A stretch of 63,304 bases of DNA from a virus: IMG/VR virus record IMGVR_UViG_3300035126_000079, positions 1 to 63,304 of that record, one strand, 5' to 3'. Both the position numbers and the translations under genes were made by a program. Below the pieces are notes generated by a model that saw only the letters and a program-made list of their open reading frames with translations, ran no database searches and was not told the origin of the DNA. Below, one piece after another: positions 14,104 to 25,993 of the stretch. How positions within the stretch are numbered: the stretch's first letter is position 1; the number at the start of each line of letters is the position of its first letter.

Positions 14104-14131
14104 AATATAGCACATCGCTTTACTTTGTCAA
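14104..14131 (-). promoter_or_regulatory. Sigma-70-like promoter, leftward
   Basis: Minus-strand TTGACA (14131-14126), 16-base spacer, TATATT (14109-14104), about 27 bases ahead of the 14077 start codon. It immediately follows the terminator at 14144-14166, marking a clean operon boundary. No TAACAWTGTTA palindrome lies downstream of it. Confidence 0.75.
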
Positions 14132-14143
14132 TAGTACAGACGT

Positions 14144-14166
14144 AAAAAAGCCGCCCGTAGGCGGCT
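14144..14166 (-). terminator. Rho-independent terminator, leftward
   Basis: AGCCGCC/GGCGGCT 7-bp stem with a four-base loop, followed on the minus strand by six U. It ends the 22.2-14.2 kb operon. Confidence 0.88.
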
Positions 14167-14175
14167 AGGATATAC

Positions 14176-14190
14176 CCTAACATTGTTAGG
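14176..14190. promoter_or_regulatory. Palindrome site 1 (CCTAACATTGTTAGG)
   Basis: Full 15-bp inverted repeat between the stop codon of the DUF3310 gene and the terminator; leftmost copy of the dispersed palindrome family. Confidence 0.8.
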
Positions 14191-14195
14191 TCGTT

Positions 14196-14705
14196 TTACT
14201 TCAGCATTGTGATCTCACGAGTCAGATACCACTGGGCTTTGCGCAAGTCTTCGAGCTTGTTGCCTTTGTGGTCGGCACGAGTCAGATACTTAATCACGTT
14301 GCCAATGTTGTAGTTGAGCTTCTTCGCTTCGATGAAGTCGATGGTCTCGATTCCACCTACTTTGTAATGCTCAGGGTGATCTACTGCATCAAACATTTCA
14401 ATCTGCATGGGTGTGTTGGATGTAGTAATGGACACAGTTTTCCAATCGGCTATTGTCTCATCCATTATCTGCTTGTGCTTTGCCATTGCTTCTTTGGCTT
14501 TGGGCGTATCCATTAGCTCTCTTAGCGTAAGCGTCTCACGCTTCTTCTTTACTACTTTGGCTTTCTTCTTCGCGTTCCACAGCACTGTGTATACGTACTG
14601 AAGTGCAACACCGATAGCATCTGCTACCTCCTGTGGTTTGGCCTTTGGGTTAGCGGCTACGTAGCTACGCACTTGTGCGGCTTTGGTTACTTTTTTGATT
14701 GTCAT
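14196..14705 (-). CDS. DUF3310-like protein with N-terminal HTH-like region
   Basis: 169 residues. The C-terminal third (DHPEHYKVGGIETIDFIEAK, then NIGNVIKYLTRADHKG and EDLRKAQWYL) is the DUF3310 signature found across phages and linked by homology to nucleotide metabolism. The N-terminal 50 residues (PQEVADAIGVALQYVYTVLW) look like a helix-turn-helix followed by a lysine-rich linker. Last gene of its operon; 4-base ATGA overlap with the gene before. Confidence 0.8.
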   Translation of the reverse strand: MTIKKVTKAAQVRSYVAANPKAKPQEVADAIGVALQYVYTVLWNAKKKAKVVKKKRETLTLRELMDTPKAKEAMAKHKQIMDETIADWKTVSITTSNTPMQIEMFDAVDHPEHYKVGGIETIDFIEAKKLNYNIGNVIKYLTRADHKGNKLEDLRKAQWYLTREITMLK

Positions 14706-14908
14706 GGTTTATTTCCTGTTTGGTTGTTAACGTACTCGGTAAGAACTTCTCTCATCTTGGCTTGCTTTGACATTCGATGGTTGGTGTCGAAATAATCCAT
14801 CACCTCTCTCGGCAGTCGCAAGCTCGTGCAAGCTAATGCGGGTTTCTTACCAAGCCCCCGCCCCTTGCGTTTCTTCTCTAACTTTAAATACTCAATTCCT
14901 GTGGTCAT
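14702..14908 (-). CDS. Small ribbon-helix-helix-like protein
   Basis: 68 residues. A basic N-terminus precedes LACTSLRLPREVMDYFD and a helix SKQAKMREVLTEYV: a beta strand followed by two helices as in ribbon-helix-helix (CopG/BrnA-like) DNA-binding proteins. It overlaps its neighbours by 4 bases on both sides. It is a candidate regulator; the fold assignment is tentative. Confidence 0.55.
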   Translation of the reverse strand: MTTGIEYLKLEKKRKGRGLGKKPALACTSLRLPREVMDYFDTNHRMSKQAKMREVLTEYVNNQTGNKP

Positions 14909-15228
14909 TTGTTTCCTTTCGCTCTGTCCATAACTCTTTCCATTGCATCCGAGTAGCTCATACCCAATGCTTTATCTATCAAAGCCAAAGACTCATCAAT
15001 GATTTTGTCGTACACCCCTGCTTCGGCTTCTCTAATTGCAGTTAGCGTGAACTTTGCATCTTCCAATGCTTCAATGTCGGCGCTGTTGACTTGCCACATC
15101 AGCTCAATGTCGGCTTCGATAGTGTCAAAGTAGGGCTTAATTGGTTTTAGCGGTTTTATCCTATCAAACATTTTCTGTCCAAGTTCGTAGAACTCTTTGT
15201 CTTTTCCTGTGCTGTTATCAATAGTCAA
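14905..15228 (-). CDS. Hypothetical phage protein
   Basis: 107 residues, acidic, predicted largely helical (FDTIEADIELMWQVNSADIE, then a helix to the end). It overlaps both neighbours by 4 bases, so translation is coupled. No family recognised. Confidence 0.6.
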   Translation of the reverse strand: MTIDNSTGKDKEFYELGQKMFDRIKPLKPIKPYFDTIEADIELMWQVNSADIEALEDAKFTLTAIREAEAGVYDKIIDESLALIDKALGMSYSDAMERVMDRAKGNK

Positions 15229-15389
15229 AATGGTGCCTCTTCATGTTGTGGTTTCTCTGGTTTGGGGAATCGCTTGGGGTCTAGCCGTGTGAACGGCCAC
15301 CACGCCCGTAGCTCCTCCTGACTTAGCACTTTGCCTTTCGACATCGGCTTCGTAGTATCTTGTTGGGTACTTTGCTTTTTTCTTGACAT
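15225..15389 (-). CDS. Small Trp-rich protein, possibly the 3' half of a frameshifted gene
   Basis: 54 residues from the ATG at 15389 (MSRKKQ...). The segment EELRAWWPFTRLDPKRFPKP looks conserved in style. It overlaps the 15241-15498 frame by about 149 bases, unusually long for this genome where overlaps are mostly 4 bases. The two frames meet at an A6 run (minus strand, 15381-15376). It may be an independent overlapping gene or the continuation of the upstream gene by slippage or an indel. Confidence 0.5.
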   Translation of the reverse strand: MSRKKQSTQQDTTKPMSKGKVLSQEELRAWWPFTRLDPKRFPKPEKPQHEEAPF

Positions 15390-15498
15390 ATTTTCGTAGC
15401 CAGTCGGCTCCACCTAATTCTTTAAACTGAAGCCACTCGACGTCACTTAAACGTACGTATCGTGCCTTTAGGAGGGCGGGGGGCTTTGGTCTTGGCAT
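15241..15498 (-). CDS. Small basic protein; C-terminal half doubtful
   Basis: 85 residues in this frame. The first ~45 (RLSDVEWLQFKELGGADWLR, then YVKKKAK) look like a real helical small protein. After the A6 run the composition turns featureless and the other frame (15225-15389) looks like protein instead. A +1 shift at the A run would give a protein of about 91 residues joining both plausible halves. Confidence 0.45.
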   Translation of the reverse strand: MPRPKPPALLKARYVRLSDVEWLQFKELGGADWLRKYVKKKAKYPTRYYEADVERQSAKSGGATGVVAVHTARPQAIPQTRETTT

Positions 15499-15694
15499 GC
15501 TCTAGTACTCCTTCGTGCTTATTCGGTTGCCTTTGCTTGGCTCGGGTGAACGAACCAAATTGTTTGTACCCAAGGTCTTCCTCGCTCTTGATCTGATTGC
15601 TCGGGTTCTTAGCTCTGAAGTATTGGTCTTTCAAAAAGATACTAGGGCGATCTACCTGCGCTAGCTCCTCCCAAGGGTTCAGTACTTTGGTCAT
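15443..15694 (-). CDS. Hypothetical basic phage protein
   Basis: 83 residues: an acidic/aromatic N-terminus (NPWEELAQVDRPSIFLKDQY) and a Lys/Arg/Pro-rich tail likely to be disordered. It overlaps the next gene by 56 bases and the previous one by 4. Unknown. Confidence 0.5.
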   Translation of the reverse strand: MTKVLNPWEELAQVDRPSIFLKDQYFRAKNPSNQIKSEEDLGYKQFGSFTRAKQRQPNKHEGVLEHAKTKAPRPPKGTIRTFK

Positions 15695-16020
15695 CGCTTA
15701 TCCCCAAACATATGCCCGACACTGCTTTCGTAAGCCACGGGCTTTTGCCCCCTCAGTTTGGCGATCTGCTCGTCCCACTTTAATCCGTTCATGTGCTTCC
15801 ATCCTTCTAACTTATCAGCTAAAAACTTCTCGTTGCCTTTGAACAAGCGCGTGTTAAGCGCCATGCTTGCAATAACTTCCATATCCACAGCGTGCTTGCG
15901 CACTTCTTCAGCGTTGCGGCGCACTCCACCCACGGCGGACATAATGATTGACTGCAACATCACAGGGTCTTGGGCACGGCGTGCTACCTCGGACAAAAAC
16001 TTCATCTCATCTTCATTCAT
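15691..16020 (-). CDS. Hypothetical helical phage protein
   Basis: 109 residues, predicted nearly all helical, with Ala/Arg-rich heptads (EEVRKHAVDMEVIASMALN). 4-base overlaps on both sides. Unknown function. Confidence 0.6.
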   Translation of the reverse strand: MNEDEMKFLSEVARRAQDPVMLQSIIMSAVGGVRRNAEEVRKHAVDMEVIASMALNTRLFKGNEKFLADKLEGWKHMNGLKWDEQIAKLRGQKPVAYESSVGHMFGDKR

Positions 16021-16265
16021 GTCAATACTCCTAACTGTCTAAGTGCTACTTTCAAACCTTCCACACCACCGACTCGCTGATCGTTGATGAATATTTGTGG
16101 CATCTGCCTAGCGTCAGGGAATTCCTTGAGTAAGTTACCCATGCGCTCACCCACCATAATGTCTACGTCCGCATACTTAAGCCCTGCGGCATTCAGTATT
16201 TGCTTCGCTGTCACGCAGTTTGGGCAGTTATCCTTTGTGTACATCGTTATGTTGACGTTGTTCAT
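16017..16265 (-). CDS. Glutaredoxin
   Basis: 82 residues from the ATG at 16265 (MNNVNITMYTKDNCPNC...); a longer frame upstream reads through the preceding gene and has no glutaredoxin character. Active site C14-P-N-C17, TVP-like cis-Pro region QMPQIFINDQ and the GG motif (RVGGVEGL) are all present. A likely thiol-disulfide reductant, for example for ribonucleotide reductase, though no such enzyme is encoded here, so it probably serves a host enzyme. Confidence 0.9.
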   Translation of the reverse strand: MNNVNITMYTKDNCPNCVTAKQILNAAGLKYADVDIMVGERMGNLLKEFPDARQMPQIFINDQRVGGVEGLKVALRQLGVLT

Positions 16266-16473
16266 GTCCGATCTTCCTTTCTTGGTAGGTAAAAACAAAT
16301 TGGCACTTCTTGCATTGCTTCTGTTGCACGTAGGCATGCTCATCTGGGTACGAACACCATTCACTGAAGTCATGTTGGCAGTCACCAAAAAAGTGGTCAA
16401 ACAACCAAACAAACCCCGCGATACCGGCAATAAGTACCGGCCCTAAAAGCATGAGCCAAAGATCATTCATCAT
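16228..16473 (-). CDS. Membrane-anchored protein with cysteine pairs
   Basis: 81 residues: one N-terminal membrane segment (LMLLGPVLIAGIAGFVWLF, about 7-25), then CQHDFSEWC and QCKKCQFVF, a potential zinc ribbon. The last ~12 residues overlap the glutaredoxin start. Unknown function; could position a metal site at the inner membrane. Confidence 0.6.
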   Translation of the reverse strand: MMNDLWLMLLGPVLIAGIAGFVWLFDHFFGDCQHDFSEWCSYPDEHAYVQQKQCKKCQFVFTYQERKIGHEQRQHNDVHKG

Positions 16474-16627
16474 CGTCGCCCTCCACGTTTTCTTGTATCA
16501 GTTGTTGCTTAACAAGCTCAAGAACGCCTATAACTGTGGACATGTAAAGCGTTTCGTCGTACTTGCGAACTACTGCAATAAGCTCATCAGCCAACCCACC
16601 CGCTAATTTTCCTTGGTTCAGTATCAT
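16463..16627 (-). CDS. Small acidic hypothetical protein
   Basis: 54 residues starting at the ATG at 16627, which overlaps the previous stop by 4 bases (ATGA); the longer frame to 16711 is inside the upstream gene. Helical, ending in the acidic tail EGDDDE. Unknown. Confidence 0.55.
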   Translation of the reverse strand: MILNQGKLAGGLADELIAVVRKYDETLYMSTVIGVLELVKQQLIQENVEGDDDE

Positions 16628-16896
16628 TTCAGCCCCTTCAAAAGCAGTAACATTGTTATGGCGTCGGGCAATGACTCCTCCTCGCGTACTAGGTACAGCT
16701 CGGTAAGCCAATCGCTTCGGTTTTGATTCTTGCTCGGCTGATACGTGCGTAGTGTTAGCACCCGCCCATTGAGGGCGTTCGTGATTGAAATACTTGTTTG
16801 GTCACTCGGAGAGCTATCCACCTCATGCACTCTTGCCCCCACCAACTTCACACCCTCGTCCATCAACCAATTTCTAATCCATCTTTTAATACTCAT
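16624..16896 (-). CDS. Hypothetical phage protein
   Basis: 90 residues with an amphipathic N-terminal helix (IKRWIRNWLMDEGVKLVGAR) and a beta-rich middle. A core palindrome copy lies within its 3' end. 4-base overlaps with both neighbours. Unknown. Confidence 0.55.
   Translation of the reverse strand: MSIKRWIRNWLMDEGVKLVGARVHEVDSSPSDQTSISITNALNGRVLTLRTYQPSKNQNRSDWLTELYLVREEESLPDAITMLLLLKGLK
16648..16658. promoter_or_regulatory. Palindrome site 2 (core TAACATTGTTA)
   Basis: 11-bp core inside the 16624-16896 gene, reading I-T-M-L in that frame. Confidence 0.6.
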
Positions 16897-17075
16897 TTTT
16901 CCTCCAATACTTCTAAGATTACTTTCTTAATCCTGCCGTACGCATCTGCTTTGGTATACGGAGCGGCAAGAATGATGTCGATTTCGCACAGGGCGTCGTA
17001 GTACTGCGTGCCCTTCAATGCGTGCTCTAGTTTGTATTCGTCTTGTGGGTACTCAAATTCAAGTACGGCTTTCAT
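16893..17075 (-). CDS. Small acidic hypothetical protein
   Basis: 60 residues, mixed helix/strand (KAVLEFEYPQDEYKLEHALK). It overlaps the upstream 55-residue gene by 17 bases and the downstream gene by 4. Unknown. Confidence 0.55.
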   Translation of the reverse strand: MKAVLEFEYPQDEYKLEHALKGTQYYDALCEIDIILAAPYTKADAYGRIKKVILEVLEEK

Positions 17076-17226
17076 ACGCGGCCCCCTTCGTCAAGCGAAT
17101 GAGTAGTCGCGCCTTACGCCATGTTCTGCGCACATCTGTTGATGCGGCATCGACCCATTTGAATTTGGGGTGATTGTGATCTCGCAAGGGAATCACTTTG
17201 GATTGGTATTTGATTTCATGTTGCAT
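17059..17226 (-). CDS. Small basic hypothetical protein
   Basis: 55 residues (MQHEIKYQSKVIPLRDHNHP..., ending AAYESRT), filling what would otherwise be a gap. Its Shine-Dalgarno AGGAGA partly overlaps palindrome site 3, so a protein bound there, or an RNA hairpin, could affect initiation. Rich in Arg/Lys (VRRTWRKARLLIRLTK). Unknown function. Confidence 0.55.
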   Translation of the reverse strand: MQHEIKYQSKVIPLRDHNHPKFKWVDAASTDVRRTWRKARLLIRLTKGAAYESRT

Positions 17227-17235
17227 CTAAATTCT

Positions 17236-17250
17236 CCTAACATTGTTAGC
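17236..17250. promoter_or_regulatory. Palindrome site 3, overlapping a ribosome-binding site
   Basis: CCTAACATTGTTAGC between two genes; on the minus strand the right arm runs into AGGAGA, the Shine-Dalgarno of the 17226 gene. Confidence 0.75.
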
Positions 17251-17255
17251 CTGTT

Positions 17256-18143
17256 TTATGCCAGTTCCCGCGCCGCGCTGAGTAAAACAAACACCTCAGC
17301 AGTGGCTCGACAACCGACACCCTCAATCATTTGCTCAGGCTCTACTAGCTTGAGCATCCCTAACTTACCTCTCATATCTACGGGGAGCGTATTATCATCG
17401 TAAAGCTGTACTTCGTCACCTGTTTTAACTACGTACTTTCCATTAGACAATAAGACTAGACTAGTATCCTTACCGGATTTGAACTTGGTCTCTATGTCTT
17501 CGACAGTCAGCATCTCAAGTCCTGTCGCACGCAGTTGGGATAACAATGTTAGTTGCCCGTTACCCATTGCATACTGTTTGAACTCGTCGGCCTTCACATC
17601 GAGCACAAAGTTTTTCATAAGTGGCATTAGTTTGTGCATGTTGTTTGCATAGTCCCCACGCTTACGCCCTGCCTGTCTGCTGATAGCACGAGCGGCTTCT
17701 CCCAACGCATCATTCATACGCTCAGTCATGCTCTTGGGATTAAAGGTTTTCTTGATAGCGGCTAGGGCTTTCTTAGCATCCTTAGTCCGATACGCGCCCA
17801 CACGCTCACGCTCACTACGAATAGTGTTGCTAGTGATAGAGAACACATACCCACCTTGGTCGTAACGATAGTCGCGGTCGATAGCACCTACCACTTCTCC
17901 ATCTTTGCATACTACGAACTTAGTAACTGTGATCCGCGCCTTCTCATCCGCAGTTGCACTCTTGATCTGTCCGTAATACTCAGGCACTCGGAACTCCCAC
18001 GTTGGGTTCTCGGTGATGACCTTCCACATGATCTCATTCAATGGCTTCTCCACCACGAAATCAAAGTCGCTCTTACGTTTACCCTGCAACGTCTTGTCGC
18101 TAATGATGACGTTACTCAATGTCATTGCTGTGCTTGCATCCAT
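17256..18143 (-). CDS. Hypothetical protein, early region
   Basis: 295 residues, mixed alpha/beta, no motif recognised. It contains a basic central region (ARAISRQAGRKRGDYANN) and a beta-rich C-terminus (LVLLSNGKYVVKTGDEVQLY). It lies just downstream of the DUF3150-like gene (10-base gap) and may work with the ATPase/VWA module. Palindrome site 4 lies in its coding sequence. Confidence 0.65.
   Translation of the reverse strand: MDASTAMTLSNVIISDKTLQGKRKSDFDFVVEKPLNEIMWKVITENPTWEFRVPEYYGQIKSATADEKARITVTKFVVCKDGEVVGAIDRDYRYDQGGYVFSITSNTIRSERERVGAYRTKDAKKALAAIKKTFNPKSMTERMNDALGEAARAISRQAGRKRGDYANNMHKLMPLMKNFVLDVKADEFKQYAMGNGQLTLLSQLRATGLEMLTVEDIETKFKSGKDTSLVLLSNGKYVVKTGDEVQLYDDNTLPVDMRGKLGMLKLVEPEQMIEGVGCRATAEVFVLLSAARELA
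17541..17551. promoter_or_regulatory. Palindrome site 4 (core TAACAATGTTA)
   Basis: Core copy inside the 17256-18143 gene, coding L-T-L-L. Confidence 0.65.
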
Positions 18144-18153
18144 GATCTACTCC

Positions 18154-19002
18154 TTACCATTCAAATTTCTTAATGATTGCATCTACCTTAGCCTTGACCT
18201 CGGTGCGATGTTGTTCGCTATCCTTGATTGCCTCTATGTCAGTACCTAACATTGTTAGCTCTAATTCCTTGCGTGCTTCCTCCAACTTGGGGTCGTTGGT
18301 GATGTTCATCTTAGTAAGCAAAGCACAAAGCTCTAGCGGGTTGCTCACCAATGTGTCGTGGTAACGCTTCTTACCACCCGATGTGTCGTCGAGTTTCTTA
18401 GACATGCCTACTAGCATTTCATGTAACCGCTCCCATGGCTCACGCATAGCGTCAGCTAGCTTGTTGTCTTGTTGTGCGCTGAACTCTGCTTGCATCTCGG
18501 CTAAGTCATTCGCAGGTATATCTAAGCGAAAATCACCCGCCTCGGGTACAGGCTTGACTGTTCTACGAAACCCAAACTTCAGCTTCACTTCTTCAAGCTC
18601 GGGATAGTCCTCGGCTCTGTACATCTTGCCTAGGTGCGTAGGTGCATCCTTCACTAGCTCAGGGTATGCGTGAAAGAATGAGCCGCACATGGCATTGAAC
18701 GTCTGCTCGTATGCGTTCATGGTCTGTTTGTATTCCATAAACAAGGCAGTCGGCAACATACGCTCGCCCTTGTCTGCCCATGGTAGCGTTCGCTGATTGT
18801 GATAGAGACGAACCTTGGCGGCAAAGTTCTCGATCTCCTTACGCAAGTTAGTACCTGCGAATAGGTTCTTGTGGACACGCGCTGCGTCTACGACTGCTGA
18901 TGCGTCAGTATTCACTTGCGCCGTTGTATCGCGGTCTAGCTTTGATGCAGGCCACACGCTGATGTTCAATTCCACTAACACTGCTGATGAACTAATACTC
19001 AT
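18154..19002 (-). CDS. DUF3150-like protein, partner of MoxR/VWA module
   Basis: 282 residues. The opening NISVWPASKLDRDTTAQVN, followed by KNLFAGTNLRKEIENFA, then YHNQRTLPWADKGERMLP, resembles DUF3150 proteins, which in phages usually lie beside a MoxR-like ATPase and a VWA-type metallopeptidase-like protein, as here (21112-22179 and 19460-20635). Mostly helical. It probably belongs to the same complex; biochemical role unknown. Palindrome site 5 is in its coding sequence. Confidence 0.6.
   Translation of the reverse strand: MSISSSAVLVELNISVWPASKLDRDTTAQVNTDASAVVDAARVHKNLFAGTNLRKEIENFAAKVRLYHNQRTLPWADKGERMLPTALFMEYKQTMNAYEQTFNAMCGSFFHAYPELVKDAPTHLGKMYRAEDYPELEEVKLKFGFRRTVKPVPEAGDFRLDIPANDLAEMQAEFSAQQDNKLADAMREPWERLHEMLVGMSKKLDDTSGGKKRYHDTLVSNPLELCALLTKMNITNDPKLEEARKELELTMLGTDIEAIKDSEQHRTEVKAKVDAIIKKFEW
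18245..18259. promoter_or_regulatory. Palindrome site 5 (CCTAACATTGTTAGC)
   Basis: Within the DUF3150-like gene, coding L-T-M-L-G. Confidence 0.75.
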
Positions 19003-19196
19003 TTCTTATCTCCATATACGTTGTTTGCGATTGTGGCAAAGCGGTTAATTGCTTCGAACTTGGATACTTTGTTGGTCTTAAATGTATAAGCCAAGGTCAT
19101 AGCTAAGATAACCATGCCCTCGCCATTAGAAACTTCTTGCTCAGCGAACCGCTTAACGATTCGTATACCTTCGTTCTTCATTTCTTCAGGTGTCAT
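18999..19196 (-). CDS. Small hypothetical helical protein
   Basis: 65 residues, helical (EEMKNEGIRIVKRFAEQEVS). 4-base overlap with the DUF3150-like gene. Unknown. Confidence 0.6.
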   Translation of the reverse strand: MTPEEMKNEGIRIVKRFAEQEVSNGEGMVILAMTLAYTFKTNKVSKFEAINRFATIANNVYGDKK

Positions 19197-19197
19197 T

Positions 19198-19503
19198 TCA
19201 TTTCTCCTGTGGTTTACCGGCTAATCTAGCCATTTGATATTTACTGTCACCTATGATCTGCATACTGAAGTTGGCTTCGTTCGGGTACACATGGTAGGTG
19301 TACGTTTCAGTCATGCCCAACTCTTTGCGCTTGTCCTCACTCCACCATTTCTCTTCGTACACTTCTGCACTCTCTAAGACTTCCACTAACTGCATGGCTT
19401 TCTCTTTGGGCATGATGTACTTCTTGTATCCAATATCTACTACTACCATACTGCCTCCCTTAATCTTGAATATGAATCGTTCTGCCATTGTCAGAAACCG
19501 CAT
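19198..19503 (-). CDS. Small hypothetical protein of the VWA module
   Basis: 101 residues. The start at 19503 is fixed by a perfect AGGAGG six bases upstream, located inside the 3' end of the VWA gene; the overlap is 44 bases. Beta-rich first half (FIFKIKGGSMVVVDIGYKKY), charged second half. Unknown. Confidence 0.65.
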   Translation of the reverse strand: MRFLTMAERFIFKIKGGSMVVVDIGYKKYIMPKEKAMQLVEVLESAEVYEEKWWSEDKRKELGMTETYTYHVYPNEANFSMQIIGDSKYQMARLAGKPQEK

Positions 19504-20635
19504 CGTTACCTCCTGTGATTACCCACATAGTCGGTGCAGTCCATTCGCTACCCCAGTTGGGTACATAGCCATCGGTCAACACGATGATGCACTCGGGCTT
19601 GATAACCTCGTCACGCAAGTATTGAGATACGCAACTAGGGTCAGTGCCCCCGCCACCCTTGGGTTTGGTCGAGCTAACAATGTTAGATACTTCCGCACCC
19701 TCATACTTCTCATGCCCCGCTACATCACCATCCCAATAGATCAAGTCCACCATCTCGGGGTTGACTTCTTCTGCCACGCCTTTCACCTCGGCTAAGAATT
19801 CGTCAAGCTCACGCCCACCGATGGAGCCCGATGTGTCAATGGCTACTACGATGTGTCCAACCTTCTCACCGATCATGCTTGGCATATACGTACCGGCAGA
19901 CAAGTATCTGCGGTTGACTCTGCGCCATGACGATGTGTCCTTGTTGTGGCATGTGGCTTTCACATATTCACGTAGTTCCTCACGCCAGTTGATCTTGGGT
20001 TGTAAGTGTTCATCAATCTCACGCCCCACACCACCCGCACCTTTGCCGTGTGCCTTCTCATGTGCCATGACACCCTGACGAATAGCTTGGTCGATCTCAC
20101 GCTCAAGGGTTTTCTTCTCCTCCTCGGTCATCTCTCTTGCACCATCCCAATCGTGGTCATCGAACCCACCACCCCCATCGCTCTCTTCGAGTAGGTCGAA
20201 CACTTGCTTGGAGTTCATGCCCTTGAACTGTGGGTCGTACAGTCCCATGCGCTGACCCTTCATAACCCCATCCTTGTACTTAGGCATGGAAATCACATCC
20301 TCGTTGGGGTCGAGTTCATGAAGCATCAGGTTAATAACGTAGTCACAAGCACTGTTGGCACGGCTATGGTTCTCGTCATTGAGTTTCTTCCATGTAGTCA
20401 AGTGTCTGTACATCTTGTGTGACACCTCATGCGCCACGACAAATGCCAATTCTTTGTCGGTCAAAGCCGCCACAAACTTACGCCCATACTTCTCATCCCT
20501 ACCATTGGTAGACGCAGTGGGTATGTCATCCACTACGCTAGTACGACCAACCATCATCACACCTTGGAGTAAGGCGAACTTAGGATTACGCATGAGCGTG
20601 ATCTTGGCTTTCTGCAATTTACGTTCTTCTAACAT
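19460..20635 (-). CDS. Metallopeptidase-like HExxH plus von Willebrand A domain protein
   Basis: 391 residues. N-terminal metallopeptidase-like domain: H69-E-V-S-H73 (AHEVSHKMYRH). After a Gly/acidic linker (150-215), a VWA domain has a complete MIDAS: D267-T-S-G-S, T331/D332 (GGTDPS) and D355 (VLTDGY). This matches the DUF2201/VWA-like family that works with MoxR-type AAA+ ATPases, as NorD/CbbO work with NorQ/CbbQ, to remodel or metallate a target. The ATPase is encoded at 21112-22179. The ATG is the exact centre of palindrome site 7, and the preceding gene's stop is in the same palindrome. Confidence 0.85.
   Translation of the reverse strand: MLEERKLQKAKITLMRNPKFALLQGVMMVGRTSVVDDIPTASTNGRDEKYGRKFVAALTDKELAFVVAHEVSHKMYRHLTTWKKLNDENHSRANSACDYVINLMLHELDPNEDVISMPKYKDGVMKGQRMGLYDPQFKGMNSKQVFDLLEESDGGGGFDDHDWDGAREMTEEEKKTLEREIDQAIRQGVMAHEKAHGKGAGGVGREIDEHLQPKINWREELREYVKATCHNKDTSSWRRVNRRYLSAGTYMPSMIGEKVGHIVVAIDTSGSIGGRELDEFLAEVKGVAEEVNPEMVDLIYWDGDVAGHEKYEGAEVSNIVSSTKPKGGGGTDPSCVSQYLRDEVIKPECIIVLTDGYVPNWGSEWTAPTMWVITGGNDAVSDNGRTIHIQD
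19674..19686. promoter_or_regulatory. Palindrome site 6 (CTAACAATGTTAG)
   Basis: Inside the VWA gene, coding S-N-I-V, a different reading frame from sites 4 and 5. Confidence 0.7.
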
Positions 20636-20642
20636 TGTTAGG
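20629..20642. promoter_or_regulatory. Palindrome site 7, containing stop and start codons
   Basis: Minus strand CCTAACAATGTTAG: TAA is the stop of the 20638-20898 gene and the central ATG is the start of the VWA gene. Confidence 0.75.
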
Positions 20643-20898
20643 TTCCTTCTATGTGTCGTTGCTTGTTAATCATGTCGGCAAATAACTTCGCCTCTTCAAA
20701 CGTGTCATGCACTGATATAACCTTTTGGGTATCAAGAAATGCACTCTTGTAATCCTTGGCGTCAACCAATTCATACTTGCCTGTGTAGTAGAGTTGGGAG
20801 GGCATGGTGTTCACTATCTTGAACTTCGGGTCATGCTTGCTCTTGTCTACTGTCGTTTGCCTACGCACAAATGCGTTACCAATCTTAGAGAAGGTCAT
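20638..20898 (-). CDS. Small hypothetical protein
   Basis: 86 residues from the ATG at 20898 (a GTG three bases earlier is possible). Its first base is the last base of the previous stop (TGATG). Basic N-terminus, then TFEEAKLFADMINKQRHIE. It ends inside palindrome site 7. Unknown. Confidence 0.6.
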   Translation of the reverse strand: MTFSKIGNAFVRRQTTVDKSKHDPKFKIVNTMPSQLYYTGKYELVDAKDYKSAFLDTQKVISVHDTFEEAKLFADMINKQRHIEGT

Positions 20899-21125
20899 CA
20901 CATCCCCCCTTCGATTAGTAACTTAGCCATAAGCAGTAACTCTTGTAAGGTTTCAAAGTCATGTATCTTGCGGAAGTCCTGTCTGCTCTCCACTTGGTAC
21001 AAAATATATCGTTGCTTACCATCGTCATCTTGATACCCACCCACCGCATACCCTGCTTCATGTAGCTTGGTATAAGAGAATGGGTTAGGAATCCAAACTT
21101 CATCCTTAGGCTTAGAGTAAGTCAT
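20898..21125 (-). CDS. Small hypothetical protein
   Basis: 75 residues from the ATG at 21125 (MTYSKPKDEVWIPNPFSYTK...); longer readings would cover the ATPase C-terminus. Overlaps the ATPase gene by 14 bases. Unknown; position suggests linkage with the ATPase/VWA complex. Confidence 0.55.
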   Translation of the reverse strand: MTYSKPKDEVWIPNPFSYTKLHEAGYAVGGYQDDDGKQRYILYQVESRQDFRKIHDFETLQELLLMAKLLIEGGM

Positions 21126-22179
21126 GGTTCTTAGCCACCCAATCAGCGAACGCCTTGCAACTGAACGCAATGCTCTGTTTGCTTGGTGTCTTGGCAATGT
21201 TGATAGCGAACACCGCTTGCCACTCTGCATCGAATCGGTTCAAGTACTCCATGAATGGGGCAATGGTTGTCTTGTCTACCCGAGCAATCGCACCGAATAC
21301 CACAATGGCACATGCACCCGCTGACGTAGGTATTGCCGTGGTCTTGGGATGCGTGATCGTTGACTCCCATGTCGGCAACTGATCTGAGAACTCAATGTAT
21401 GCTTGCATATCCCGAGCGGCTGACTCACCCACCGCACCTGACAAAGCCGCAATCACAGTCTCGGGGTCGTTATCTTTGCGAGACCTAACAATGTTAGACG
21501 CTGTCTCAAGCGAGCGTGGTGATACGAAAGCCTTCTGAGAGTTCTTAGGGTTGTAGATGTAGGGGTTGTCGCCTTGCCCTGCGTCTGTGTAGCTAGCCAT
21601 TGCATGAGGGAAACGATTCACCCAAGCAATCACCTCGGGCTCGATACCCTTACCGATAGCCCACTCAATCCACTGCTCGGCATCGGGTTTGCTGATCGTT
21701 ACGGGAACCAGTCGGTTACGGCTATGCGCTTTCAGGTTATCGCCCACGCCGTCTGTTGAAAGGTTACCAGTAAGAAAGACAATGGTAGTACTCGGGTCAA
21801 GCGGTATGTCACCGAGTCTAGGGTTTGCCTTCTCTAGCATAGGGTGAAGCATATTCTTCACGGGTTCTGCACCCTTGGTGAACTCATCGAGCATGATGAC
21901 CATGGGTTTGCCAGTATGAATACCAAAGCGTGCGTTGGGGTAATACCTAGTGGTCTTGGTATCGTGGTCGATCACAGGCATGGCAATGTCGCCCAAGTCC
22001 ATGTTCGGCACGTCTATGTATGCGTACTCGTAGCCCAAGCCGTTAGCAATACTCTCCAATAGGGAAGACTTCCCGATTCCTGGCTCACCTTGTAGGAGAA
22101 AGCGCGTAGTAGGATTGGTGCGAATCAGGTTCGCGGCTTGTTTGAGGGTAATTGATTTACCGAATTTGATCTCTGACAT
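21112..22179 (-). CDS. MoxR/CbbQ-like AAA+ ATPase
   Basis: 355 residues. Walker A GEPGIGKSS (31-39), Walker B VIMLDEF (94-100), sensor-1 Asn139 in FLTGNL, and an Arg-finger region SRNRL (153-157), the order found in MoxR/CbbQ/NorQ ATPases. First gene after the 22.27-kb promoter, with a palindrome between promoter and start. Paired with the HExxH-VWA protein and a DUF3150-like protein, it probably forms a ring that remodels a host or phage target. Confidence 0.88.
   Translation of the reverse strand: MSEIKFGKSITLKQAANLIRTNPTTRFLLQGEPGIGKSSLLESIANGLGYEYAYIDVPNMDLGDIAMPVIDHDTKTTRYYPNARFGIHTGKPMVIMLDEFTKGAEPVKNMLHPMLEKANPRLGDIPLDPSTTIVFLTGNLSTDGVGDNLKAHSRNRLVPVTISKPDAEQWIEWAIGKGIEPEVIAWVNRFPHAMASYTDAGQGDNPYIYNPKNSQKAFVSPRSLETASNIVRSRKDNDPETVIAALSGAVGESAARDMQAYIEFSDQLPTWESTITHPKTTAIPTSAGACAIVVFGAIARVDKTTIAPFMEYLNRFDAEWQAVFAINIAKTPSKQSIAFSCKAFADWVAKNHDLL
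21485..21497. promoter_or_regulatory. Palindrome site 8 (CTAACAATGTTAG)
   Basis: Inside the AAA+ ATPase gene, coding S-N-I-V-R-S. Confidence 0.7.
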
Positions 22180-22198
22180 ATCTAACCTTTCTGATTGT

Positions 22199-22215
22199 GC
22201 CTAACATTGTTAGGC
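22199..22215. promoter_or_regulatory. Palindrome site 9 (17-bp perfect, operator position)
   Basis: GCCTAACATTGTTAGGC, 8-bp arms about one central base, between the 22.27-kb promoter and the ATPase start codon, about 50 bases past the -10. Confidence 0.85.
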
Positions 22216-22265
22216 GTTTCTAATTTACTCTGCATTTTTGACGTAGTTTTCCCACATCAGCTTAT

Positions 22266-22294
22266 ATTATACCACATTGTTATAGCAATGTCAA
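22266..22294 (-). promoter_or_regulatory. Consensus sigma-70 promoter with half-operator in spacer
   Basis: Minus-strand TTGACA (22294-22289), exactly 17 bases, TATAAT (22271-22266). The spacer carries ATAACAATGTGG, a half-match to the dispersed palindrome. 23 bases around the -10 are identical to the 24.68-kb promoter. Drives the 22179-to-14196 operon. Confidence 0.93.
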
Positions 22295-22315
22295 GTCCTT
22301 TCGTCATGGGTCTGA

Positions 22316-23464
22316 CTAAAGAACTCCTCTCCTCAACCTTTCTTCCTGTAATCGTTTGACCTCCTCCTCTGTCGGCATCTTTGTTATGTATGCTTCGTAC
22401 TTGTCGTTGGGCAACTGATTCGGTTTGAGTGGTCGCTTCTCGATCATCTCATCGCTATGCCATTGCATCATGATCTTGTCCAGCATCCGCTCGACTGCGC
22501 TTACTGAAATATCCACAACCACATCCTCTCCTTCCTTTGGCGCTCTGTGTATGTACGGCATCGCCATACCTAACAATGTTAGGGTTATCCGATAGTAGTT
22601 GTCGACCTTCCCATCTTCGAGTTGGTCATCGCGTATCGCTGCAAAGAAACTCTTGCACTGCTTAGAGTATGCAGACCACAGGGTCTCCTCTGGGTTCGCA
22701 TCATCGTGCAACAACGACAAGCATCTGTAACCCTGCGGTTTGAACTCGATGAGCTTCACCGAATCAAGGTCGGGCTTCCACACAGTCTCCTTCCCCGAGG
22801 CTTTTATCCCACGCCATGCCGTCTGCTCTTTGTACTCGTACCCAATGCAGTCGGCAATCTCCATCATGGACATACGAATGTCTCTGCCTTCCACATCTTT
22901 GCGCAGGGACAGGAACCCACCGAAGTACTTCATGAACCCTGAGTATTGAGACCTAACAATGTTAGATGCCTTGCGGTTAACGTAGTACGAATAGATGGTT
23001 TCTTTGCTGTCCACACTCAGGCACTCGCCTTCACAACTTAATGTTAGCGAGCCGTTCTGTTTAAGCACATGGCGTTCAGCATCCACGATGATGCCCACCT
23101 TCTTGCGGTCTAGCCAAGCGGGTATATCTAGCACCCGCCCGATCATCCCTGACTCCATCAGTCCCATGTACTTAGGTGTGATGATGATCTTGTTGTCAGG
23201 CGTGAACGTGAGCAGGGGCGAGCGGTAACTAAGCAACTCGATGTTCCCACCCTCACCTTCTCGGATTGAATAGATGTCAATGTCCTCACGCCTACCCAAT
23301 GGGATGCAAGGTGTCGGGTTGTCGCGGTCGTACTTGTCGCGTGTCTCGGGTGTGCGCCCCCGAATGGGTTTGGTTTTCTTGAGGCGTGCCATTGCATCTG
23401 CGTGGCTACGGACAATCGGCAAATAGTAGGTTGAGGCATGAAGCCCCGTCTGTCTTTCTTTCAT
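22316..23464 (-). CDS. Hypothetical protein, early region
   Basis: 382 residues, no recognised domain. Basic N-terminus (ARLKKTKPIRGRTPETRDKY), central beta-rich region with two close cysteines (LSCEGECLSV), helical C-terminus (PTEEEVKRLQEERLRRGVL). Its end lies just upstream of the 22.27-kb promoter. Two palindrome copies occur in its coding sequence in different frames. Confidence 0.65.
   Translation of the reverse strand: MKERQTGLHASTYYLPIVRSHADAMARLKKTKPIRGRTPETRDKYDRDNPTPCIPLGRREDIDIYSIREGEGGNIELLSYRSPLLTFTPDNKIIITPKYMGLMESGMIGRVLDIPAWLDRKKVGIIVDAERHVLKQNGSLTLSCEGECLSVDSKETIYSYYVNRKASNIVRSQYSGFMKYFGGFLSLRKDVEGRDIRMSMMEIADCIGYEYKEQTAWRGIKASGKETVWKPDLDSVKLIEFKPQGYRCLSLLHDDANPEETLWSAYSKQCKSFFAAIRDDQLEDGKVDNYYRITLTLLGMAMPYIHRAPKEGEDVVVDISVSAVERMLDKIMMQWHSDEMIEKRPLKPNQLPNDKYEAYITKMPTEEEVKRLQEERLRRGVL
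22569..22583. promoter_or_regulatory. Palindrome site 10 (CCTAACAATGTTAGG)
   Basis: Inside the 22316-23464 gene, coding L-T-L-L-G. Confidence 0.75.
22952..22966. promoter_or_regulatory. Palindrome site 11 (CCTAACAATGTTAGA)
   Basis: Same gene as site 10 but in the other frame, coding S-N-I-V-R-S. Confidence 0.72.
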
Positions 23465-23466
23465 GA

Positions 23467-23640
23467 TTACTCCATTAGTTCTGATTGCGCACGCAGGCGC
23501 AGGGCTTTCACATTCTTCAGCGTGGGGTACTTCAGGCAGAAGCGTTCCCTTGCGGTGCTTATATCTTTAGCCTCGGCAATCTCGGTCACCCAATAGCCGA
23601 AGCGGTTACTCCATCCTGTCATTACGTATTTAGCTAACAT
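23467..23640 (-). CDS. Small basic hypothetical protein
   Basis: 57 residues (MLAKYVMTGWSNRFGYWVTE..., ending AQSELME), stop 2 bases before the next ATG. Its ATG is the centre of palindrome site 12, like the VWA gene. TAREFRCLKYP-like and KALRLR segments give it a basic character. Unknown. Confidence 0.55.
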   Translation of the reverse strand: MLAKYVMTGWSNRFGYWVTEIAEAKDISTARERFCLKYPTLKNVKALRLRAQSELME

Positions 23641-23839
23641 TGTTATCCTCCTTGATTAAATCGTAGTACATTCGTACCTGTTTCTTTGTACCCTGTGCTA
23701 GTAGCACCACGTTGTTTGCCTCGTTAGGCACGTTCAGGTGGCTCTCGACTATGCGTTGGTATCGGTAATCCCTCTCGTTAAACATAACAATAATGTCGTA
23801 ACTAGGCACTCGGCAAAGGTAGTAGGTCTCCTCCATCAT
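23630..23839 (-). CDS. Small hypothetical protein
   Basis: 69 residues from the ATG at 23839, which overlaps the micro-protein stop (ATGA) and has GGAG upstream. Mixed alpha/beta (YDIIVMFNERDYRYQRIVES). C-terminus DNNVS is written by palindrome site 12. Unknown. Confidence 0.55.
   Translation of the reverse strand: MMEETYYLCRVPSYDIIVMFNERDYRYQRIVESHLNVPNEANNVVLLAQGTKKQVRMYYDLIKEDNNVS
23635..23645. promoter_or_regulatory. Palindrome site 12 (core, over a start codon)
   Basis: TAACATTGTTA; minus-strand central ATG starts the 23467-23640 gene while the upstream gene reads N-N-V-S here. Confidence 0.65.
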
Positions 23840-23925
23840 GGTCTCCAATAAAGTAGGTCAAGTGCAAGCACTATGCAAGCACACAAAATAACAATGCGCT
23901 CGATCTTTTCCCATCGGGTCATCAT
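23836..23925 (-). CDS. Micro membrane protein (29 residues)
   Basis: MMTRWEKIER followed by a single hydrophobic helix (IVILCACIVLALDLLYW) and RP. Linked to both neighbours by 4-base ATGA overlaps, the signature of real genes in this genome. Function unknown; a regulatory or host-envelope micropeptide is possible. Confidence 0.5.
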   Translation of the reverse strand: MMTRWEKIERIVILCACIVLALDLLYWRP

Positions 23926-24101
23926 GGTGCTTCCCCCTTGGTTTGCTCGCATAGTTCATCGAGCGTGAAGTAAACGTTTTCCAGTCTGCCCCGCACCTCA
24001 TGGCGGTTACGGATACTGTCGATATTGTTTAGGGCATAGCGCAGTTGGTCTCTCATGCGTGTGAACTCGTCATGCAGTTCGTCTCTGTATTCATCTAACA
24101 T
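23922..24101 (-). CDS. Small acidic helical protein
   Basis: 59 residues (MLDEYRDELHDEFTRMRDQL..., ending EQTKGEAP). Its ATG is the centre of palindrome site 13. Likely a short coiled coil. Unknown. Confidence 0.55.
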   Translation of the reverse strand: MLDEYRDELHDEFTRMRDQLRYALNNIDSIRNRHEVRGRLENVYFTLDELCEQTKGEAP

Positions 24102-24342
24102 TGTTAGGCTCCTTCATGTCCTTCATTAGGATTACTAGGTCTTCGATCAAGTCTTGGATGCAGTCGCCTCGGATTGCGTGAACGGGCTCAACGCCTAAGT
24201 CTTCCGCCATCTGCATCACATCCGCAAACAACTTGTCCCATCCCGCAGTCCAGTCGGTCATGTCGTACCAACCGATTGGGTAGATTTCGTGGTCGGAGAA
24301 CAAATAGCCCCAGTACATCATCCCTGTATCTTCTTTGGTCAT
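24091..24342 (-). CDS. Small acidic hypothetical protein
   Basis: 83 residues, Trp/Asp-rich (DHEIYPIGWYDMTDWTAGWD), ending EPNNVR at palindrome site 13. 4-base overlap with the upstream gene. Unknown; acidic composition would allow DNA mimicry but nothing else supports that. Confidence 0.55.
   Translation of the reverse strand: MTKEDTGMMYWGYLFSDHEIYPIGWYDMTDWTAGWDKLFADVMQMAEDLGVEPVHAIRGDCIQDLIEDLVILMKDMKEPNNVR
24095..24109. promoter_or_regulatory. Palindrome site 13, over a start codon
   Basis: CTAACATTGTTAGGC; the minus-strand central ATG starts the 23922-24101 gene and the upstream gene reads P-N-N-V-R through it. Confidence 0.72.
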
Positions 24343-24563
24343 CCTCGCAACTCCTTTTGGTTTGTTTGCTTAAGTGTTACCCGTGCGCTCGCAGGTGTAA
24401 CAAGTTGGTAGTTGCCCTTGCCGTATTCTTGGACTACGCACCAACTCATGCGTTCTTCTCGGGCGGCTTCTTCACCGCAGAATAGGCAGACTCGGTAGCC
24501 TAGTGACCACCGCTCACTGTGTATATCGTCACCGCAGTTGCGGCACTCTTTCCAATCATTCAT
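24339..24563 (-). CDS. Small zinc-ribbon protein
   Basis: 74 residues, first gene behind the 24.68-kb promoter. CRNCGDD and RVCLFCGEE form two CxxC knuckles 18-20 residues apart, a zinc ribbon; the C-terminus is basic. Leader sequence AGAAAGGTTAGAT before the ATG is shared with the ATPase gene. Possible nucleic-acid-binding regulator. Confidence 0.65.
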   Translation of the reverse strand: MNDWKECRNCGDDIHSERWSLGYRVCLFCGEEAAREERMSWCVVQEYGKGNYQLVTPASARVTLKQTNQKELRG

Positions 24564-24584
24564 ACATCTAACCTTTCTAATGAG

Positions 24585-24599
24585 CCTAACAATGTTAGG
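24585..24599. promoter_or_regulatory. Palindrome site 14 (operator position)
   Basis: CCTAACAATGTTAGG between the 24.68-kb promoter and the zinc-ribbon gene, mirroring site 9 at the sister promoter. Confidence 0.82.
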
Positions 24600-24608
24600 G
24601 TGCTTCTA

Positions 24609-24644
24609 ACGGGCGGGATTGCCCGTATCTGCCGAGCAAGCTCG
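24609..24644 (-). promoter_or_regulatory. Two small hairpins in the leader of the 24.68-kb transcript
   Basis: ACGGGC/GCCCGT (24609-24614 with 24621-24626, 6-base loop) and CGAGC/GCTCG (24633-24637 with 24640-24644). No U tract follows. They would fold in the untranslated leader between promoter and palindrome site 14. Confidence 0.4.
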
Positions 24645-24675
24645 TCAGTAGATGGTTTTCTCCCATCTAACTTAT

Positions 24676-24704
24676 ATTATACCACATTGTTATGTCAAAG
24701 TCAA
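24676..24704 (-). promoter_or_regulatory. Consensus sigma-70 promoter with half-operator in spacer
   Basis: Minus-strand TTGACT (24704-24699), 17 bases, TATAAT (24681-24676). The spacer holds ATAACAATGTGG, and the early transcribed region (GATGGGAGAAAAC) resembles that of the 22.27-kb promoter. Drives 24563 down to 22316 and likely beyond. Confidence 0.92.
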
Positions 24705-25162
24705 GTTCTTTAGTCTTGGGTGTGACGAAAGGTAATGTTATAAAGTTATGTTATATTTTAAGTGGGGTCAGCAGTAGGGTTATTGTGGAGGGGCAGAAAT
24801 GGGATGTTATGAAAGCAAATGGGGGTGCGTTATGAAAAAAGGGGAAATGTAACGAAAATTAGGGTAAACGTAACGTGAAACGTAACACGGGGTTCTCCTC
24901 TGTAAAATGGGTTTTTTTAATATAATGTTATAATGTTATGTGTTTTTTAAGAAAGGGTATGTGGTCTCCAAAATTATTTGCGTAATACGTTTTGCACTTC
25001 TGAGGTCTTTCGTTGCCTCATAACTTTTGGGAGGTCGACACCCATTATGCCAAAAACACGTAACTTTATAACTTTCTAGGTTTCATGCGGGTTCCCAGCG
25101 TTTCGTAACGTAACAAAGCCCTTTTTTCCGTAACATTAGACGTAACATTGCACAAAGTTACA
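24705..25162. other. Gene-free AT-rich segment, candidate replication origin
   Basis: No convincing gene on either strand. The hexamer CGTAAC occurs about seven times between 24868 and 25146 (two abut near 25104-25114), with a further TGTAACG and many GTTATG/ATGTTAT words (24732-24760, 24920-24950). One strand has repeated G3-G5 runs (24760-24860). Placement at the divergence point of the two transcription domains and iteron-like words suggest an origin or regulator-binding region; this is inference. Confidence 0.45.
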
Positions 25163-25173
25163 TAACATTGTTA
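25163..25173. promoter_or_regulatory. Palindrome site 15 (core TAACATTGTTA)
   Basis: Intergenic core copy directly abutting the tandem 43-bp repeat. Confidence 0.65.
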
Positions 25174-25253
25174 GGTCGCTTGCTACCGCCGCCCAGAGAA
25201 CTGGCATTCAGATCGAGGTCACTTGCTACTGCCGACCAGAGAACTGGCATTCA
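25173..25253. repeat. Tandem direct repeat, 43-bp period
   Basis: Two 38-base copies (25173-25210 and 25216-25253) differing at three positions. Each contains CCAG-AGAA-CTGG, a small hairpin. Non-coding, between palindrome sites 15 and 16. Confidence 0.8.
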
Positions 25254-25264
25254 AAAAACCCCGC

Positions 25265-25290
25265 AAAAAAAGACCTAACATTGTTAGGTC
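25265..25290 (-). terminator. Palindrome site 16 followed by a U tract
   Basis: GACCTAACATTGTTAGGTC (25272-25290) is a 19-bp palindrome. On the minus strand it is followed by seven T, so transcribed RNA could form a weak terminator hairpin; it is also the longest copy of the operator-like family. Confidence 0.55.
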
Positions 25291-25301
25291 GGTTTAGACG
25301 C

Positions 25302-25325
25302 AAAAAAGCCCGCACTAGGCGGGCT
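25302..25325 (-). terminator. Rho-independent terminator, leftward
   Basis: AGCCCGC/GCGGGCT 7-bp stem with a 5-base loop and six U on the minus strand, 35 bases past the 25360-25854 gene, making that gene monocistronic. Confidence 0.88.
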
Positions 25326-25359
25326 CAGGATGGGGTAAGGGTTTCCCCTTACCTGTGGT

Positions 25360-25854
25360 TTACTCGATTGCGCCTGTATCAACACCGAGGGCAATCAAAG
25401 CCGAGGTGATGTAGGTTTGCGCATCTTGCTCACGATCGCTCAGGCTCTCAGCGTTCTTGCAAGCTTTGAACAACGTGCTCAGTTCCTCGATCAATCGGAG
25501 GTTGAGTGAGCGATTGTGGCGTGCACCTACTGACGTATCGGTTGAACCCTCGGTTTTCTCGGGCTTGCCCTCGATGTGCTCTTGTGCATACTTGCGAACC
25601 CGAGCCCAAACTGTTGACGGGTTTGTGTGCTCTGCTTCGTTCAATGCTTTGAACAATGCTTTCTTTTCCGCATGAACTTGCTTTGCATCCTCACCCTTGT
25701 CATTGTGCTCGACAAGATACCATTCAACCGGTAACACTTCGCAAAGCTTTTCAGCATAGTCACGCTCAGCGCCGTATGCACGTTTGACCGCATCGGCAAC
25801 ACCCTGACGCAAATCGGACAAGGACAAAGTGGAAATTGTAGTAACTGTTGACAT
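25360..25854 (-). CDS. Monocistronic early protein, candidate regulator or origin protein
   Basis: 164 residues, no recognised domain. Mostly helical: an N-terminal helix (LSDLRQGVADAVKRAYGAE), a TNPSTVWARVRKYAQEHIEG segment with a helix-turn-helix-like look, a Ser/Thr linker, and a C-terminal helix (NLRLIEELSTLFKACKNAES). It has its own consensus promoter and terminator and is bracketed by palindrome sites 16 and 17. First early gene next to the candidate origin, it is a reasonable suspect for the palindrome-binding protein, but this is positional inference only. Confidence 0.65.
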   Translation of the reverse strand: MSTVTTISTLSLSDLRQGVADAVKRAYGAERDYAEKLCEVLPVEWYLVEHNDKGEDAKQVHAEKKALFKALNEAEHTNPSTVWARVRKYAQEHIEGKPEKTEGSTDTSVGARHNRSLNLRLIEELSTLFKACKNAESLSDREQDAQTYITSALIALGVDTGAIE

Positions 25855-25927
25855 GATCTAATAACCTCTAATGAAACCCAGTAAACGGACTAGGAAACCG
25901 CCACAAGCATTTTGCTTGCTTGAATAT

Positions 25928-25956
25928 ATTATACCACAAAAAAGTGGCAATATCAA
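25928..25956 (-). promoter_or_regulatory. Consensus sigma-70 promoter, leftward
   Basis: Minus-strand TTGATA (25956-25951), 17 bases, TATAAT (25933-25928). It shares TGTGGTATAATATA with the other two early promoters but its spacer has CCAC-N6-GTGG in place of the AACAATG half-site. Drives the 25854 gene. Confidence 0.92.
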
Positions 25957-25976
25957 TTTTCCCGTGAACAATAATT

Positions 25977-25993
25977 ACATAACATTGTTATGT
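25977..25993. promoter_or_regulatory. Palindrome site 17 (variant ACATAACATTGTTATGT)
   Basis: Perfect 17-bp palindrome with the common 11-bp core and altered flanks, 20 bases upstream of the -35 of the 25.93-kb promoter. Confidence 0.7.

Follow-up and report, generated by a model that had tools for sequence, protein, structure and literature searches.

A candidate DNA-binding protein family accompanies an invariant palindrome array over the early arm of phage genomes

The gene, its signals and the palindromes around it

The leftward early arm of the virus genome studied here opens with a solitary gene lying among copies of a perfect palindrome, which raises the question of whether its product reads these palindromes and, if so, to what effect. 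The window, meaning the stretch of DNA analysed, is the whole virus record of 63,304 bases. The gene encodes a 164-residue protein, P0001, and the terminase genes diverge from it; the terminase small subunit is assigned from a weak PHROG match alone (E = 0.014).

An initial annotation made from the letters had put this gene first, on grounds of position, among candidates for an unknown family of DNA-binding proteins that would act on the palindromes. Where that annotation placed a candidate origin nearby, we saw a cluster of half-sites in the non-coding block that follows the gene. The reading frame is present, with a translation matching the quoted one, and the two palindromes said to bracket it lie upstream of its promoter and past its terminator (Table 1). 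Its description as the only monocistronic early gene agrees with the ORF list and the early-arm sequence as we read them, and its own promoter and terminator were recovered as promoter-like and terminator-like sites. All promoters in this analysis are consensus matches only. Because scans of the window barely exceeded shuffled sequence (promoter-like sites, 2 versus 1.1 per shuffle; terminator-like sites, 4 versus 1.7), it is the quality and position of the two P0001 calls that count, not their rarity. A TTGAC-type pattern matched P0001's own promoter in two records, the window and G103, where the nearest palindrome lies 34 and 51 bp upstream of the -35 element, respectively.

Counting both strands, the window has 17 exact copies of the palindrome TAACAwTGTTA (TAACATTGTTA), confined to positions 14178-25990 and hence to 12 kb, compared with an expectation of 0.06; a count of 17 was reached in none of 100 shuffles. 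The middle base on the plus strand is T in 11 copies and A in 6, the rest of the core being perfectly palindromic, and an eighteenth TAACA-n-TGTTA, with G at its centre, is found at 8637. Seven cores lie within genes, three over start codons (TAACAATG), two in operon leaders and five in other non-coding DNA. The replication operon to the left of the last site, which encodes a primase-like protein, an SNF2 helicase, a PD-(D/E)XK nuclease and DNA polymerase A, has no exact copy. A sigma-70 region 4 protein is encoded at 10792-11544 on the minus strand, overlapping the nuclease ORF; blastp gave no match to it in G009, G097, G101 or G103.

Table 1. Positions of the features of the window discussed in the text
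Feature	Position	Strand	Remark
Palindrome core	25980..25990		34 bp upstream of P0001 -35; inside 17-bp perfect palindrome 25977-25993
P0001 promoter-like site, TTGATA-17-TATAAT	25928..25956	minus	11/12 matches to consensus
P0001 gene, putative palindrome-array protein of 164 aa	25360..25854	minus	ORF call; first early-arm gene
P0001 terminator-like hairpin, then T's	25306..25326	minus	intrinsic-terminator-like
Palindrome core past P0001 terminator	25276..25286		inside 19-bp perfect palindrome 25272-25290, itself a hairpin with T-run
38-nt direct repeat	25173-25210 and 25216-25253		92% identical; non-coding block between palindromes
Palindrome core, non-coding block	25163..25173
Non-coding block rich in half-sites TAACR/YGTTA	24720..25175
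Early operon promoter 1 (putative), TTGACT-17-TATAAT	24676..24704	minus
Palindrome core, operon 1 leader	24587..24597
Palindrome core across start codon (TAACAATG)	24096..24106
Palindrome core across start codon	23635..23645
Palindrome core within CDS 22316-23464	22954..22964
Palindrome core within CDS 22316-23464	22571..22581
Early operon promoter 2 (putative), TTGACA-17-TATAAT	22266..22294	minus
Palindrome core, operon 2 leader	22202..22212
Palindrome core within AAA ATPase gene (21112-22179)	21486..21496
Palindrome core across stop-start junction, VWA/metallopeptidase gene	20630..20640
Palindrome core within CDS 19460-20635	19675..19685
Palindrome core within CDS 18154-19002	18247..18257
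Palindrome core within CDS 17256-18143	17541..17551
Palindrome core, short intergenic gap	17238..17248
Palindrome core within CDS 16624-16896	16648..16658
68-aa RHH-like protein, rival reader	14702..14908	minus
Last palindrome core	14178..14188		then terminator-like hairpin 14149-14166 and next promoter
Replication operon promoter-like site	14104..14131	minus	57 bp beyond last palindrome

The copy at 25272-25290 has a T-run behind it and scores as a terminator, as it should if the palindromes worked in RNA as hairpins or terminators. We find this reading hardly credible, as no T-run follows the other window copies, the arms are one fixed sequence with flanks that are not always complementary, and a four-pair A+U-rich stem would presumably be unstable.

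The array in related phages

Relatives of P0001 were gathered by protein searches blind to the palindrome, and palindromes were scored afterwards. Across these phages the half-site TAACA is constant and the spacer between half-sites measures 0, 1 or 2 bp. IMG/VR searches yielded sets of 17, 19 and 30 loci, and 15 more of a distant clade B. The palindrome was found in 17/17 loci of the first set. In the second and third, which make 48 loci once L018, already counted, is removed, spacing 1 occurred in 44, spacing 0 in two (L212 and L213) and spacing 2 in one (L216); the sole palindrome-free locus, L215, is 4.1 kb long. All 15 clade B loci had palindromes. In 14 of them spacing-2 sites were present, in some cases alongside a few spacing-1 sites; the remaining locus, L306, breaks off within the gene and had a single spacing-1 site. 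The presence of the palindrome in 47/48 and 15/15 blind-found loci supports the positional argument of the initial annotation, although the records are related and the counts are not independent.

Starting from the DNA instead, 27 of the 46 records with at least three palindromes among the matches listed encode a P0001 relative, and two (G009 and G030) carry a clade B gene. The other 17 of these listed records show no terminase either and therefore seem not to reach the junction; G015 was examined to 20,000 of its 20,566 bases. Five more stretches with at least three palindromes, outside that count, belong to records in which the gene is present. Among single-palindrome controls, the gene was found in 3 of 50 records, all three of which proved palindrome-rich when viewed more fully, one of them being paired with its fuller version by record length. 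In the stretches examined of the annotated terminase relatives DSL-LC04, HTVC027P, 023Pt_psg01 and MinM2 there was no TAACA-0..3-TGTTA, and the HTVC023P stretch had two; none of these five stretches matched the clade A profile (A2) at E values up to 10. Gene presence or absence alone does not single out P0001: six of the 76 window genes are shared by all 12 near-full records and missing from all five array-less relatives, and P0001 scored 11/12 in this search, presumably because the G009 copy is too distant to be detected.

The array is anchored on the P0001 gene. It begins at the P0001-family gene in all 16 mapped records and, in the 14 that are long enough, extends in a single direction along the early arm over some 9-20 kb. 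Stray sites lie beyond it, for example in G090 (25.6 kb) and G107 (22.8 kb), and G013 has one 14 kb away on the opposite side. Two P0001-family genes per record were seen in G005, G013, G017, G023, G039, G045 and G115; where the copies are in tandem (G013 and G017), the array begins at the first. The first palindrome is at most 160 bp upstream of the called gene start in 14/14 single-copy records, and the gaps between palindromes widen away from the gene in 14/14 records (Spearman 0.47-0.93; p < 0.05 in 13). Pooling 191 sites from 11 records gave the motif CTAACAwTGTTAG, in which the 10 arm bases are fixed by definition and the flanking C reaches 87%. The 900-bp non-coding stretch after the gene is also rich in half-sites, with 15 in the window versus 5.2 in shuffles; the count exceeded the shuffle mean in 13/14 records, barely so in G090, and the shuffle maximum in 5/14, and fell below the mean in G013.

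Palindromes also keep a set distance from operon promoters of the type TTGAC-N17-TATAAT with TGTG, lying 50-110 bp downstream of the -35 element in 14/15 cases. With shifted arrays the mean was 1.2, and 14 was reached in 0 of 20,000 trials; the mirror window upstream gave 1. A partial palindrome in the spacer of two window promoters, TAACAATGTGG, was considered as an operator and dropped, as most relatives do not have it.

Several in-gene palindromes hold the same codon position after other codons have diverged, as selection at the level of the DNA would have it. Of 39 sequences submitted to the codon comparison, 34 aligned to the ATPase, and the site TCT AAC ATT GTT was kept in 32 of these rows (26/28 distinct records), whereas codons of unchanged residues elsewhere in the same rows were only 0.42-0.78 identical. 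The site was lost in G112 and L301, spacing-2 phages that still encode S-N-I-V. Sites 18247 and 19675 were kept in 25/34 and 26/34 rows and were missing from all five spacing-0 or spacing-2 records (G009, G111, G112, L296 and L301). In gene 22316-23464, the 22954 site was present in 10/10 rows, eight of them just 23-28% identical in protein, and the L296 version has spacing 2; the 22571 site was kept in 2/8 rows covering it. Outside the window, site 17541 was matched in one record only (L012/G097). The poor retention of 17541 and 22571 among relatives counts against the explanation favoured below.

Half-site spacing and the candidate reader

The covariation of spacing with the P0001 clade is the decisive result. 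On the P0001 tree three spacing changes are needed, versus 9.5 in shuffles, the spacing-0 row standing beside spacing-1 relatives. A blind test came from loci fetched with another protein of the array-bearing phages, the RHH-like protein discussed below: among the best 80 of 360 relatives, 15 loci include a P0001-family gene, and here spacing 1 accompanied clade A (7/7) and spacing 2 accompanied clade B (8/8).

G009 makes the same point within one genome. Its P0001 is 27% identical to that of the window over 117 aa, compared with 83% for terminase, 76% for the ATPase and 79% for the RHH-like protein; in the spacing-1 phages G097, G101 and G103, P0001 is 46-58% identical and the neighbours are otherwise broadly similar. 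Some genes have a lower identity to the window in G009 than in G097 (ATPase 76% versus 88%, portal 58% versus 75%), and a few, such as 22316-23464, are low in every record compared. The G009 array has 11 spacing-2 sites and six of spacing 1. To judge by these comparisons, a distant homologue has taken the place of P0001 in G009 and most array sites have switched spacing, with nearly all shared genes ordinary. The spacing rule is not absolute, since G009 keeps its six spacing-1 sites; likewise, the spacing-1 ATPase site survives in G009 and L296, both of clade B, and in the spacing-0 record G111, which speaks against a strict rule.

A different reader can be proposed. The 68-aa protein encoded near the far end of the array, which we take to be an RHH protein from the sequence pattern of that fold and which had no family-library match, might read the palindromes, leaving P0001 another task or the part of a partner. 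It occurs in 12/12 near-full records and 0/5 array-less relatives, so presence alone cannot pick between the two, and all 80 loci fetched with it (the best 80 of 360) contain palindromes, mainly of spacing 1 in 29 and of spacing 2 in 51. The 5-3-5 layout of the palindrome also resembles that of matS, which is read by MatP, an RHH protein. Its tree, too, groups the loci by spacing (5 changes versus 16.5 in shuffles), but less tightly than the P0001 tree with its three, a comparison between different row sets in which the RHH tree is poorly resolved. Moreover, its identity to the window ignores spacing, being about 78-79% in G009 (spacing 2) and 56% in G097 (spacing 1); the predicted base-facing residues, which we assigned by the RHH fold, vary between phages sharing one palindrome; and its gene sits where the array is sparse. 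We consider this reader unlikely.

A host protein is a still poorer candidate, and we regard it as very improbable. Cell-side proteins can bind such sites, since binding to TAACATTGTTA has been reported for the plasmid antitoxin MtvA (PMC11826091), a match that is probably a coincidence; spacing, however, shifts with the phage gene and not with the shared genome background. In our judgement, P0001 very probably reads the array. That spacing tracks its clade, and that it is the gene apparently replaced in G009, adds weight to its earlier nomination from position.

P0001 seems to found a previously undescribed and widespread phage protein family. Searches of P0001 and its relatives against Pfam, PHROGs, NCBIfam, PADLOC and PDB sequences returned weak rows only and no usable match. 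In the Pfam scan of 37 members, DUF7854 gave the lowest E value, 0.0005, with a single member, and DUF6492 appeared in three members (best 0.0079); ParB was absent among the 12 weak families listed. There was no tblastn match to P0001 in 50,697 phage records, nor to two other members in phages. Profiles of clade A (A2) and clade B (A6) aligned with an hhalign probability of 96.9% and an E value of 1.5e-10, by which the two clades are taken to be homologous.

Structure prediction, proposed at the outset as a check, gave a five-helix model, with models from 37 and 72 sequences concurring on helices 12-40, 55-73, 79-95, 117-134 and 140-155 (mean pLDDT 82 and 79; pTM only 0.48 and 0.49). The segment earlier suggested as a recognition helix falls in the predicted helix 79-95, which is well conserved and basic: of the 72 members, 60-67 retain N78, P79, S80 and W83, and 96% have a net basic core at residues 77-91 (TNPSTVWARVRKYAQ). 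We read helices 55-73 and 79-95 as a possible helix-turn-helix, with this basic helix as the second of the pair; this reading is our own, as Foldseek and VIA searches of solved and viral structures gave no convincing match, no E value below 0.001 and no convincing solved helix-turn-helix. The best VIA hit, isochorismate-pyruvate lyase (Z 6.3; 80 residues, rmsd 3.1, 8% identity), was taken as a common helix arrangement.

Proposed function and relation to known systems

Because the site is palindromic, with a constant half-site and a variable spacer, P0001 is likely to act as a dimer, which would set one basic helix (residues 77-91) on each TAACA half-site. Accumulated P0001 would then fill the 17 sites spread over the P0001 unit and both early operons, and sites roughly 20-70 bp past the operon start points and within genes might block RNA polymerase. 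The early arm would shut down, and the replication operon and late arm, almost free of sites, would carry on. We base silencing on sites that lie just downstream of early starts and inside operons, that in the window end at the promoter of the replication operon, and that are nearly missing from the late arm; for this role taken singly we see the chances as even.

P0001 could instead read the palindromes in a structural capacity, condensing, segregating or marking the origin-side arm in the manner of ParB/KorB or MatP, with secondary effects on transcription. Such a role suits sites that ignore gene structure (7/17 in coding sequence), are strictly invariant and thin out smoothly with distance from the gene, features of which the in-gene sites and the smooth growth of gaps count against silencing; the half-site excess after the gene (above the shuffle mean in 13/14 records and the maximum in five) fits it as well. 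It accords poorly with sites almost only on one side, ending in the window at the next operon's promoter, with the fixed distance in operon leaders, and with the finding of no ParA-like family among 17 window proteins scanned. We hold the structural reading to be improbable, though the most serious of the alternatives.

No P0001 relative turned up when bacterial genome contigs were scanned once with two peptide patterns, from which we infer that the phages are lytic. Taken jointly, we lean slightly towards a P0001-family dimer that, in lytic phages, reads the array and silences the early arm. A bolder proposal, to which we give little more credence than to the structural one, is that a DNA-binding family outside the known classes works through palindromes of invariant sequence that span coding and non-coding DNA of the early arm in lytic phages from fresh water, that swapping the protein for a distant homologue with another dimer spacing forces concerted rewriting of a dozen or more sites, with G009 caught part-way, and that the pair forms a self-recognition code. 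If so, P0001 and its array could tell the phage's own DNA from that of a rival phage. The spacing switch offers a natural experiment in which a regulator and more than ten sites, including sites trapped in reading frames, would have co-evolved, and tying an undescribed, widespread family to an exact DNA target makes its function testable. Silencing sites scattered over a genome are familiar mainly in temperate phages and in plasmids (Cluster A and RK2); here, if the preferred reading is true, they would serve lytic development.

Among the matches listed from the open-licence literature, we found neither this palindrome array nor the P0001 family. Synechococcus phage MinM2 (L289/L291) was considered as an equivalent system and set apart: it shares ATPase and VWA genes but carries a different palindrome genome-wide, GTTCAG-n-CTGAAC, in 21 copies spread over all 65,014 bases, many of them with GGATC or a tail like it just behind. 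The gene that opens the MinM2 early region, MM2_92, had no credible match to the A2 profile; a paralogue of MM2_92 with 39% identity lies near 48.3-48.8 kb. Three records, OQ594354, OL906435 and PP438419, each have 65,014 bases and the same MM2_92 protein, with hosts given as Synechococcus, Planktothrix and Planktothricoides, and are possibly one phage under three names.

MatP/matS offers many copies of one short palindrome in one genome region. The matS consensus is GTGACRNYGTCAC, which differs from the sites described here with their TAACA half-site in a phage genome, and no MatP match appeared in our scans. In plasmid RK2, the OB site is repeated over a mobile genome that also encodes the reader, KorB, just as the palindromes lie on P0001's own replicon; KorB has a partner, ParA. 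KorB is reported to be a ParB-family protein that exerts long-range silencing (PMC11790492), whereas no match to such proteins was seen for P0001 or the window proteins scanned.

The likeness to the stoperators of Cluster A mycobacteriophages (L5, Bxb1 and TipsytheTRex) is that one phage protein serves many short sites. The Cluster A repressor is reported to have more than 20 short sites genome-wide, in promoters and elsewhere, to be believed to stop elongation there, and to co-vary with its sites (PMC9283540, PMC6550527). Stoperators are asymmetric 13-mers oriented with transcription and found in promoters and short intergenic spaces, and their repressor binds as a monomer; the palindromes are symmetric, with the centre base in either orientation, 7/17 lie in coding sequence, and P0001 would bind as a dimer. 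Cluster A phages are temperate; for P0001, the one scan with two peptide patterns showed no relative in bacterial genomes. Pfam, PHROG, NCBIfam, PDB and phage tblastn searches detected no sequence relative of P0001. Since the site is symmetric and the protein unrelated by sequence, P0001 does not belong to the stoperator repressor family, but by analogy its array would work most like the Cluster A stoperators.
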